A DNA stretch of 64,000 nucleotides from Pseudoxanthomonas sangjuensis (GTDB taxonomy: Bacteria; Pseudomonadota; Gammaproteobacteria; Xanthomonadales; Xanthomonadaceae), in contig NZ_PDWR01000001.1 in the NCBI RefSeq assembly GCF_010211755.1, forward strand, positions 124,001-188,000. Reading direction: 5' to 3'. Positions 5,642-7,911 of this stretch are shown piece after piece (positions within the stretch are counted from its first letter, which is position 1; each line of letters opens with the position of its first letter). The position numbers and the translations under genes are program-made. The notes under the pieces were generated by a model. The model saw only the letters and a list, made by a program, of their open reading frames with translations. It was not told where the DNA came from and did no database searches.

Positions 5642-5756
5642 ATCGGTGAGCGGCGGTAGCCTGCTTTTTGTGACCACGATCGGGGGTGTTGCGCGCGCAT
5701 CAGACTTGGGATACGAATAGGCCGTGCCAGCAGCGCACGAAGAGGGGAAGGGTCTG

Positions 5757-6803
5757 ATGGCAGGGACGATGTCACGGATTGCAGCCAGCGGATTAGGCGT
5801 TCTCCTGCTGTTCGGGGCAGGCGGCGGCATCGCTTCGCCCCCGGTCGACTTCAAGGCTGCGCAGGCCCGTGATGCGAATATCGCGACCCTGCGGCGACTG
5901 CTCGACCAGCCCGAAGGACAGATCGACCTGGCGCGGGCCAAGGTCGCGATTGACCACATGGTCGATCCCACGGTGGACATGGATGGCACGTTGCGCCAGG
6001 TCGACCAGTGGGTCGCCAAAATCCGTTCCCGCTTCCCGCCTGGCGCTACCAACAAGGCGAAAGCGGACGTCCTCGTCTCGACGCTCTACGAGCCCGGCCC
6101 GTGGAACGACCGTCGCCCCTTTGGCTACGACTACGCCGATCCCTACGGGCGGGACATCAGGAAGTCACTGTTGTCCACCTATCTGGCGACCCGCAAAGGG
6201 CAATGTGTCGTCATGCCGACGTTCGTTGCCCTACTGGGCCAGAAACTCGGCTTGCCCATGACGCTGACGACGGTCCCCTACCATCTGGTCGTCAAATACG
6301 GCGACGAAGAGCAAGGCGCCTGGACCAACCTGGATGCCACCAGCGGCCTGTTCCATGATGACAGCGGCTATGAGCAGGCGTTGAACATATCGCCGGTGGC
6401 GCTCAAGAACGAAATCTTCTTGCGCCCCTATTCGCAAAGGGAGTCGGTCGCGCTGTTCGCCATTGCGGTGCTGGCGCCGCACTACCTCAAGAAGGGCCAA
6501 CCGGAGGAAGCCCTACAGGTGCTCGACCTGATCCTGGCCGTCAACCCCAAGGACACGGTGGCCATGACGCTCAAGGCCAATGCCTACGGCCTGCTGGTGG
6601 ATCAGCGCTTCCGGAGCAAATATCCCAAGGCCGATCATATCCCGGTAGCCGAGCAGGCGGAGTTCGAGACCTACAACAGTCAGATCGTCGCATGGCGCAC
6701 CAAGGCCGAGGAACTGGGCTGGCGCGAGTGGACGAAGGCCGATTGGGACAAGTACCTGAAGCACTTCAACAACGAAAAAGCGAAAGACCAAGGAGGCACG
6801 TGA
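5757..6803 (+). CDS. Exported transglutaminase-like (SirB1-type) protein with TPR-like tail
   Basis: A 348-residue protein with a signal peptide (about residues 1-27, ending GGGIAS). Its cysteine-peptidase-fold core keeps a complete papain-like triad: Cys150 (KGQCVVMP), His176 (PYHLVVKYG) and Asp193 (NLDATSG). This is the layout of the SirB1/transglutaminase-like family. The C-terminal third carries a tetratricopeptide-like helical pair (HYLKKGQPEEALQVLDLILAV). ATG 5757 is chosen for the strong SD GGGGAAGGG 5 bases upstream. Its TGA overlaps the ATG of the next gene (TGATG), so it is coupled to the Rhs-tip protein. The reaction is unknown. It could process, crosslink or anchor the neighbouring toxin-like protein, but that is inference. 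Confidence 0.8.
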   Translation: MAGTMSRIAASGLGVLLLFGAGGGIASPPVDFKAAQARDANIATLRRLLDQPEGQIDLARAKVAIDHMVDPTVDMDGTLRQVDQWVAKIRSRFPPGATNKAKADVLVSTLYEPGPWNDRRPFGYDYADPYGRDIRKSLLSTYLATRKGQCVVMPTFVALLGQKLGLPMTLTTVPYHLVVKYGDEEQGAWTNLDATSGLFHDDSGYEQALNISPVALKNEIFLRPYSQRESVALFAIAVLAPHYLKKGQPEEALQVLDLILAVNPKDTVAMTLKANAYGLLVDQRFRSKYPKADHIPVAEQAEFETYNSQIVAWRTKAEELGWREWTKADWDKYLKHFNNEKAKDQGGT

Positions 6804-7468
6804 TGGACAAGCTGAAGGTTCCCGCCAGCGCCCTGCTCGCGTTGTCGTTTCTGTTGTCTGGCTATGCGGCGGCGTCCAACGATCCGGTGAAGGCTAATCC
6901 GAACACCGGGGCCAGTTTCAATCGGTATAGCTACGCCAACAACAACCCCTATAAGTTCACCGACCCCGATGGGCGAGAAGTGAAATTAGCTGTTGGGGGT
7001 ACAGTCAATGAGGCCCAACTACTTAGTTTTCTGGTCAAGATGGCCTTCTCGCCTACGGGGCGAGCCGAATACCAACAGCTAGAGCTATCCAAGGCTACCT
7101 ACACCTTCCAGCTTGACTCCAGAGCGTCAAATTGGTTCGACCAGTCGAGCAACACAATTTACGTCAACCCTGTTTCCAATACCGTCATCCAGTCGAGTGG
7201 GGAAACGCTCGCCCCAGAACTTATCAGCATACACGAGGTTTCACATGCGGCCCAGTATGATCGCGTAGGGGCGGATGCCTTTAATCATGCATTACAGCCT
7301 ACTTTCACGACAACTACGGACTCGAATGGAAATACTACCGTCACGCGTGGAACGAGCCCGGAAGAATCCCGGGCGACACAGGTTGAACAAACTGCGGCGC
7401 AAGAAATAGGCCTGCCGGCTCGGCAGGATTATCAAGATACTTGTCGCCGAGGAGATAACGGATGCTAA
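6803..7468 (+). CDS. Exported orphan Rhs-tip protein with HEVSH metallopeptidase-like toxin domain
   Basis: A 221-residue protein in three parts. Residues 1-25 are a Sec signal peptide (ending GYAAAS). Residues about 33-57 are the closing motif of an Rhs/YD-repeat core (FNRYSYANNNPYKFTDPDGRE), without any of the preceding repeats. The remainder is a putative zinc metallopeptidase with HEVSH at 144-148 and EE at 187-188 as a possible third ligand, in a layout resembling M91-type effector peptidases (ending GLPARQDY). Rhs tips of this kind are usually polymorphic toxins. The SD AGGAGG is perfect, and the start overlaps the upstream stop. GC is visibly lower than in the flanking genes. Toxicity and substrate are inferred. 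Confidence 0.75.
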   Translation: MDKLKVPASALLALSFLLSGYAAASNDPVKANPNTGASFNRYSYANNNPYKFTDPDGREVKLAVGGTVNEAQLLSFLVKMAFSPTGRAEYQQLELSKATYTFQLDSRASNWFDQSSNTIYVNPVSNTVIQSSGETLAPELISIHEVSHAAQYDRVGADAFNHALQPTFTTTTDSNGNTTVTRGTSPEESRATQVEQTAAQEIGLPARQDYQDTCRRGDNGC

Positions 7469-7911
7469 AGCGCTTGCTTTTGGGCGCGGTGCTGGCCGTG
7501 CTTCCCGCGGCATGCTCGGCAATGTCGGGAGAAGTGCATGATCGAGATGTTGTCAATCTGATCAACGAACTACGCAGCGCCAAGCATTTCTGGCTTTATT
7601 TCATTACCAGAACCGAAGACTATTCTCTAACAAGTGATCAAATAAAGGCGCAATCGTCGATCAGGATTTACAGGGAGTGCGGCGCGAACTGTGCCAATAC
7701 CCTTGATGTGGTTGTACAGCATTTGCGAGAGGCGAAGCCCATAGTCTGCATTTCTGGGCCGGGAATGGAGAATGTCCTGCTGGAACTCTCCTCGGGCGAG
7801 CAAGTTGTTTACAGCCATGTCGGGCGGCAAGTAAAACTCAATGACCATTGCTATCTAAGTGATAGCAGCATCAACAAGGTTCTTGATCGGACCGACTATA
7901 TCTTCAAGTAG
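7462..7911 (+). CDS. Probable exported immunity protein for the Rhs-tip toxin
   Basis: A 149-residue protein of unknown family with an N-terminal signal sequence (MLKRLLLGAVLAVLPAAC). The cysteine at residue 18 could be a lipobox Cys, but Pro at -3 is unusual, so cleavage by signal peptidase I is also possible. Four further cysteines (in ECGANCAN, IVCISG and HCYLS) fit a disulfide-bonded periplasmic protein. It overlaps the toxin-like gene by 7 bases and has its own GAGGAGAT SD inside that gene. The tight coupling, small size and shared export make it the natural immunity candidate. It has the same low-GC codon use as the toxin gene. Function is inferred from context only. Confidence 0.6.
   Translation: MLKRLLLGAVLAVLPAACSAMSGEVHDRDVVNLINELRSAKHFWLYFITRTEDYSLTSDQIKAQSSIRIYRECGANCANTLDVVVQHLREAKPIVCISGPGMENVLLELSSGEQVVYSHVGRQVKLNDHCYLSDSSINKVLDRTDYIFK

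Follow-up and report, generated by a model that had tools for sequence, protein, structure and literature searches.

Three overlapping genes at positions 5757-7911 of a 64,000-nucleotide stretch of the Pseudoxanthomonas sangjuensis genome (contig NZ_PDWR01000001.1, positions 124,001 to 188,000 of the forward strand; the whole stretch is called the window hereafter) probably form one polymorphic toxin cassette, a reading to which a probability of about two in three is given. The first gene encodes a transglutaminase-like protein (TG) that would be the constant partner of the system. The second encodes a plug-toxin predicted to be exported by the Sec pathway, in which the C-terminal end of an Rhs core (the plug) carries an exchangeable tip, and the third encodes a candidate immunity protein specific to that tip. 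Toxicity, contact between TG and plug, and release of the toxin are predictions drawn from sequence comparison. The features of the locus are the following:

5757..6803, + strand: TG (P0003), 348 amino acids; Transglut_core2 and TPR, apparently exported; putative triad C150/H176/D193
6803..7468, + strand: whole gene of the plug-toxin (P0001); ATG at 6803, stop at 7466-7468, 221 amino acids
6803..6874, + strand: apparent signal peptide of P0001, residues 1-24 (hydropathy, cleavage site placed by eye)
6875..6976, + strand: Rhs C-terminal plug of P0001, residues 25-58; TIGR03696 match, D27 and D54 kept
6977..7468, + strand: variable tip of P0001; putative zinc peptidase, H144-E-x-x-H148 with conserved E187, weakly M91-like
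7462..7911, + strand: P0002, 149 amino acids, small, apparently exported protein; candidate cognate immunity

Recurrence of the cassette

The search of 395 genomes of the family with TG as query gave 39 loci at E values up to 1e-20, distributed in 30 genomes and 10 genera. A protein composed of signal peptide, plug and tip is encoded directly downstream of TG in 34 of these 39 loci (27 recognised by regular expression and 7 by eye), and a hydrophobic N-terminal start is present in 26 of the 27 recognised by the expression; signal peptides were called throughout by an ad hoc hydropathy rule. The ATG of the plug-toxin and the TG stop share one base in 17 of the 34 loci and four bases in 10 (27/34 together). 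Across 38 genomes of the genus there are other short proteins made of a signal peptide and an Rhs ending, with different tips and the same TG in front, and all eight TG loci of the genus carry a plug-toxin.

The specificity of this linkage is supported by two controls. Rhs matches of the genus lying in open frames shorter than 450 amino acids number 30, eight of them linked to TG and the other 22 used as control. Three of these 22 gave no readable motif, and none of the 19 readable ones consists of a signal peptide and plug alone (they show more of the core, a contig end or no signal peptide). Related to this, TIGR03696 gave 60 matches in eight genomes at E values up to 1e-4, 15 of them restricted to the plug (beginning no earlier than model position 41). 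These 15 plug-only matches coincide with the 15 TG loci of the eight genomes, and no TG lies within 4 kb of any of the remaining 45.

Named genomes, partly shared with the set of 395, were scanned with the TG alignment, and the best 79 of 94 confirmed relatives were considered. A plug-toxin lies downstream in 57 of the 79 listed loci (52 found by script and 5 by eye: L125, L137, L138, L142 and L151), including those of Stenotrophomonas, Xanthomonas, Luteimonas, Lysobacter, Dyella, Variovorax, Paracidovorax, Comamonas, Rhizobacter, Shewanella, Colwellia, Mesorhizobium and Rhizobium. Three loci at contig ends (L156, L162 and L163) are counted within the 79, being only partly readable. The cassette thus appears to be widespread across alpha-, beta- and gammaproteobacteria, and its linkage is well supported by comparison. 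TG was not found in phages, and it is present in five plasmid records, every one of them rhizobial.

Some loci depart from the common arrangement. Tandem plug-toxins with different tips accompany one TG at L071:4235-6179, the second following an apparent out-of-frame 3' end of TG. At L080 an Rhs-like frame of 1614 amino acids with its own apparent signal peptide lies downstream of a cassette of TG, plug-toxin and lipoprotein. At L113/L076 and at L173, TG is interrupted by one in-frame stop, and the plug-toxin next to it looks intact. Another architecture, with no TG nearby, was seen at L198, L200, L202, L203, L206, L207 and L211, where some 120 residues of complete Rhs core (YIHTDALGS...) stand between an apparent signal peptide and a tip.

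Exchangeable tips and cognate partners

The 87 short proteins composed of signal peptide, plug and tip (35 plus 52) contain 72 distinct tips, 71 of which are longer than 30 residues and fall into 37 clusters by single linkage; L127, with a tip of 12 residues, was left out of the clustering. When TG pairs at least 60% identical are considered (n=151), 122 of them differ in tip cluster, and their plugs are 77% identical on average. In these comparisons TG and plug are the fixed part of a polymorphic toxin carrier and the C-terminal tips are the part that is exchanged. Pfam matches over the cut-off were obtained for NlpC/P60 (L119), Tlde1_dom (L154) and Ntox10 (L150); the other tips gave weak matches or none. 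The number of changes of tip cluster on the TG tree (42) was given no weight, since many clusters have a single member, and the tip is lower than TG in guanine-plus-cytosine (GC) content in just 43 of 70 loci, which is a weak signal.

Among pairs of loci with tips of the same cluster, 67 of 114 have homologous downstream genes, against 0 of 2232 pairs with tips of different clusters; as far as these alignments go, the downstream gene follows the tip, as a cognate partner does. By a crude hydropathy rule, the downstream product looks exported, lipoprotein-like or multi-membrane in 46 of 71 distinct short proteins, the gene lacks an N-terminal hydrophobic stretch in 18, and no frame of at least 85 amino acids is found within 70 bases in 7. 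Those 18 include eight alphaproteobacterial genes, the partner at L074 (where the tip looks deaminase-like by eye) and the transposase-like gene at L075; one of 35 short proteins matched a deaminase family (E 0.0077). Judged by eye, the compartment of the immunity protein seems to match where the target of the tip would be expected.

The Rhs plug and the TG protein

Residues 25-57 of P0001 match positions 47-75 of the 76 of TIGR03696 (Rhs_assc_core) with an E value of 1.1e-5 and 25.8 bits (cut-off 32.5), and D27, P28, D54 and G57 are invariant across 35 aligned short proteins. The plug therefore keeps both Asp residues of the Rhs aspartyl autoprotease motif, and its activity is predicted. In RhsA and Tse5, according to excerpts of PMC8765631 and PMC10684867, the two Asp residues of the plug release the toxin inside the shell. 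The first Asp is lost at L153, L161 and L171 (Variovorax/Rhizobacter), where just YxxxNPxxYxDPxGL is left, which suggests that self-cleavage is not the only reason for keeping the plug, and that it also serves as a recognition element. In PHROGs only a weak match was found, to the plug.

On the TG tree, with 65 labelled rows, the four plug types can be explained by 4 changes, one more than the minimum of 3; it would follow that TG and plug travel together and that tips do not. This tree was built by a quick method and has many weak branches; its 118 loci were reduced to 104 and then to 88 rows by removing fragments, stop-containing rows and near-identical rows, and L152 carries the label 'none' on it, its plug-toxin lying upstream.

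TG matches Transglut_core2 (PF13369) with an E value of 1.8e-10 and 40.9 bits, against a cut-off of 23.5, and it has a hydrophobic N-terminus and a TPR match below threshold. C150 and H176 are invariant both in 30 and in 50 aligned homologs, and position 193 is D or E in all 30 (by eye). Its AlphaFold2 (AF2) model, with a predicted local distance difference test (pLDDT) score of 88.6, has menin as nearest solved fold, with similarity over the whole length; L113 and L173, which have in-frame stops, were left out of the structure alignment. Identity to menin is 11% and the Foldseek TM-scores are just 0.3-0.5, and the menin family of Pfam gave no match for P0003 at E values up to 1. A PDB sequence search with the TG profile returned TPR designs and, weakly, PNGase, and no close relative of TG. 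The NCBIfam model of SirB1 is matched by 29 of 50 TG homologs at E values up to 0.001 (best 1.7e-8); P0003 itself scores 16.4 bits, far under the model cut-off of 391. Judging from the model, TG would be a menin-fold transglutaminase-like enzyme and a new kind of constant partner, and its biochemical role is a prediction.

The locus in the window

The TG gene (5757-6803) was absent from the initial annotation of this DNA. Its stop codon TGA (6801-6803) and the ATG of P0001 have one base in common (TGATG), and an alternative longer start is possible at a GTG at 5724. The GC content steps down from 68% in the window to 62% in TG, 58% in the plug, 52% in the tip and 50% in P0002, as expected for a recently acquired cassette. 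Rfam and tRNA scans of the 64-kb window gave no matches.

The initial annotation had described P0001 as a Sec signal peptide joined to the end of an Rhs core and to an HEVSH domain, with no YD repeats, and P0002 as an overlapping small exported protein with four to five cysteines. This architecture was confirmed: the last ~34 residues of the core are present, HEVSH lies at 144-148, and no YD-repeat family was matched (no PF05593 at E values up to 1). The start of P0002 (7462) overlaps the end of P0001 by 7 bases, and P0002 has a hydrophobic N-terminus and five Cys (18, 73, 77, 96 and 130), Cys18 falling inside its apparent signal peptide.

The same annotation had taken the tip for a metallopeptidase and named M91 among the zinc peptidases to compare it with; membership of M91 is weakly supported. 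The HExxH motif is followed by a downstream Glu, and M91 (PF14891) is the only family found in the Pfam scan of P0001 at E values up to 1; its score (E 0.0049, 17.7 bits) is under the gathering cut-off of 25, and the best of four homologous tips scanned against it reaches 19.6 bits. H144, H148 and E187 are invariant in 6 tips, and E145 is present in 5 of 6; E187 would be a ligand-type Glu of zinc peptidases. An hhalign comparison of the six tips with the M91-positive tip of L010 (PF14891, E 3.4e-25) gave a probability of 77%. A PDB sequence search with the tip gave matches at chance level (E 0.27), and the tip was confirmed in no viral contig.

Homologs of the tip are found in five other genomes of the family (L034, L107, L108, L192 and L193), in all cases ending Rhs cores with open frames of 407-1076 amino acids; a sixth, L194, is broken. 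Further P0002 homologs with no visible tip of the P0001 type beside them were found at L033, L035, L036 and L038. The P0002-family genes of L035 and L038 lie ~10 kb apart in the same genome (G337), are 87% identical and have no such tip, so that they may be orphan immunity genes. P0002 is considered here a candidate for the exported, tip-specific immunity protein.

Delivery route

Export of the plug-toxin through the Sec pathway is predicted from its apparent signal peptide. The type VI secretion system (T6SS) protein VipB was found in 7 of the 30 genomes with TG and is missing from 23, the window genome included; T6SS delivery was rejected for the latter because VipB was not found. GspD scored over its cut-off in 30 of the 30 TG genomes. 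In Neorhizobium petrolearium, genes for GspM, GspE, GspF, pseudopilins, prepilin peptidase and GspD (by annotation) adjoin the cassette, and three more rhizobial loci show a GspD-like gene after TG (L152), a GspD N0 fragment (Rhizobium leguminosarum) and a GspF-like stretch (L163). These type II secretion genes beside the cassette are a hint on the release route.

Taking all this together, TG would be a Sec-exported menin-fold transglutaminase-like/TPR protein acting as constant partner, and it would recognise the toxin in the periplasm by its plug, where TG may process, hold or hand on the plug-toxin. Exit of the toxin would be independent of T6SS and most likely by type II secretion. The toxins of Xanthomonadaceae would mainly hit envelope targets in competing cells, and the exported immunity protein would shield the producer's own periplasm.

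Separate Rhs shells in rhizobia

A separate Rhs shell is encoded at five loci: Rhizobium lentis plasmid p2, a Neorhizobium petrolearium plasmid (L218), R. wenxiniae L175, and Mesorhizobium L145 and L152. The five shell frames stop at RY[YM]DPxxGR[FY][VI]P, with no plug; the plug-toxin is encoded apart from them, behind an apparent signal peptide of its own, and its plug starts at [RK]F[IV]SPD. TG lies between shell and plug-toxin in four of them (R. lentis, N. petrolearium, L175 and L145), and overlaps the shell by 4 bases in R. lentis and N. petrolearium, as well as in L145 and L175 if the first ATG is the start. The order at L152 is shell, plug-toxin, small gene, TG and GspD-like gene. The shell is of the TcdB type by record annotation in both plasmids and by Pfam in N. 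petrolearium, where a small gene overlaps the end of the plug-toxin by 4 bases. At L218 a stretch of ~26 kb contains, next to one another, the operon of shell, TG and plug-toxin, a full-length gene annotated as RHS and the type II secretion cluster.

A shell was recognised upstream of TG by regular expression in 1 of 79 loci, and tblastn with one shell found more (L145, L152 and L179 upstream; shell starts downstream at L148 and L163), which shows that the expression had overlooked some shells. A possible but tentative interpretation is a split Rhs weapon, in which TG would act in trans on the plug of a separately Sec-exported plug-toxin (cutting it, loading it or joining it covalently to a shell or carrier) before release by type II secretion; the shell would be in the operon in some rhizobia, with none nearby in Xanthomonadaceae, whose toxins would have envelope targets.

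Alternative explanations

Several observations weigh against the cassette reading. Five of the 39 TG loci of the family have no downstream plug-toxin (L092, L099, L082, L096 and L106), and neither plug-toxin nor remnant was seen near TG at L082, L096 and L106. A downstream plug-toxin is also missing from 22 of the 79 listed loci, three of these being at contig ends and L152 having its plug-toxin upstream; TG relatives with no plug-toxin are mostly distant (Caulobacter, Erythrobacter, Frateuria and Sphingomonadaceae). Homology of the downstream gene is missing in 47 of the 114 same-cluster pairs (single-linkage clusters, short membrane proteins and insertion sequences), and the label 'toxin' rests mainly on genetics because all but a few tips have no Pfam name. 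GspD presence proves little, since it was found in every genome searched, all of them TG genomes. For the window itself, the AF2 prediction of P0001 with no homologs in the input (pLDDT 40) gives no usable tip structure. At L107 and L108, and by eye at L193, the tip is followed by an unrelated exported lipoprotein-like family, so that a given type of tip can be paired with different partners, and no P0002-like gene was seen at L192. Homologs of the tip lacking the neighbouring gene, which the initial annotation had named as evidence against a coupled pair, thus exist in part. At L034 (G103, another genus) a P0002 homolog of 36% identity directly follows the same tip type. At L092 and L099, two of the five family loci named above, insertion sequences interrupt the arrangement: a partial TG is followed by transposase-like frames, with a remnant of tip or partner beyond (by eye).

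Three other explanations have to be compared with a dedicated cassette. The initial annotation had offered, besides a different delivery mode, a displaced orphan module. On this explanation a stray Rhs tip and immunity pair would have been fused by chance to a signal peptide, with no dedicated system. Orphan tips with no apparent signal peptide do exist in the genus (L197, L199 and the second match of L107) and the window's tip type ends Rhs cores elsewhere; however, TG at 15 of 15 plug-only matches, the translational overlap, the wide taxonomic spread and the conservation of plug type along the TG tree make this origin highly improbable, and it was rejected on the recurrence of the architecture with TG. 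What stands of the initial annotation is a toxin-like tip that has its own export signal and is paired with an exported partner, its carrier being unlike the large Rhs proteins. Only slightly less improbable is that the proteins are not toxins and that TG is a processing enzyme for exported housekeeping or nutrient enzymes sharing an Rhs-derived leader: the predicted peptidoglycan and peptide hydrolases among the tips could serve the producer, whereas the 37 clusters of tips borne by one fixed carrier, the downstream genes specific to the tip and the matches to Ntox10, Tlde1 and NlpC/P60 argue for toxins.

The split Rhs arrangement could also be the general mechanism, TG loading or covalently joining the exported plug-toxin to a separate shell so that a toxin-filled cocoon is rebuilt outside the cytoplasm. 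The five rhizobial loci agree with it, as do the shell remnant in front of TG in R. leguminosarum pRLN1 and the shell start after TG, at the contig end, in L148 and L163. On the other hand, a shell before TG was found by regular expression in 0 of 39 family loci, and the one weak match in 38 fetched regions (L080) is to another Rhs, lying downstream. Two long Rhs frames, each with its own plug, are present in the window genome, and no Rhs shell was found near TG there by inspection of the window and regular expression; at L179 (Exilibacterium), shell and TG occur with no plug-toxin seen. As a general mechanism it is considered unlikely, and the cassette of TG, plug-toxin and immunity protein is the preferred reading.

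Comparison with known systems

The P0001 type resembles the Rhs/Tc autoprotease-plug toxins RhsA and Tse5 (excerpts of PMC8765631 and PMC10684867) in the plug motif, with both Asp in 35 aligned proteins, the polymorphic tip and the adjacent partner; it differs in having no YD-repeat shell in the same protein, its own signal peptide and TG as partner. The MafA-MafB-MafI system of Neisseria likewise includes a Sec-exported polymorphic toxin, a downstream immunity gene and an exported upstream gene. However, in the portions available of PMC4287609, MafB carries an N-terminal domain of its own and occurs in Neisseria only, and MafA is a lipoprotein dispensable for secretion, whereas here an Rhs plug and the TG enzyme are found. 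The N-terminal domain of MafB gave no match in the Pfam scan of P0001 at E values up to 1. The SitA toxins of Myxococcus are reportedly polymorphic lipoproteins of kin discrimination with no dedicated secretion machine, and outer membrane exchange is said to be their route of delivery; the signal peptide of P0001 contains no Cys.

Transglutaminase folds are already placed among exported polymorphic toxins of the RHS type in PMC3482391, whose accessible text describes inactive domains fused before RHS repeats and lacking the triad residues; the TG described here is a separate gene with invariant Cys and His. It shares PF13369 over the cut-off with the SirB1/Transglut_core2 family, whose function is described as unknown in the consulted sections of PMC10318531; the same sections state that human menin lacks the catalytic Cys, unlike TG, which is also exported. 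No toxin link for SirB1/Transglut_core2 proteins was found in the open-licence PubMed Central (PMC) literature, and neither was any description of the operon of TG and plug-toxin; most subscription papers are outside that scope.

Implications

The cassette would define a way of carrying polymorphic toxins that depends on no T6SS and on no Rhs shell within the toxin protein itself. The TG gene could be used as a marker for many toxin-immunity pairs, most of them with no Pfam name for the tip. With a menin-like fold next to a short conserved peptide tag, direct binding between the two becomes a testable question, and the context of TG may offer a testable setting for the bacterial Transglut_core2/TPR family.

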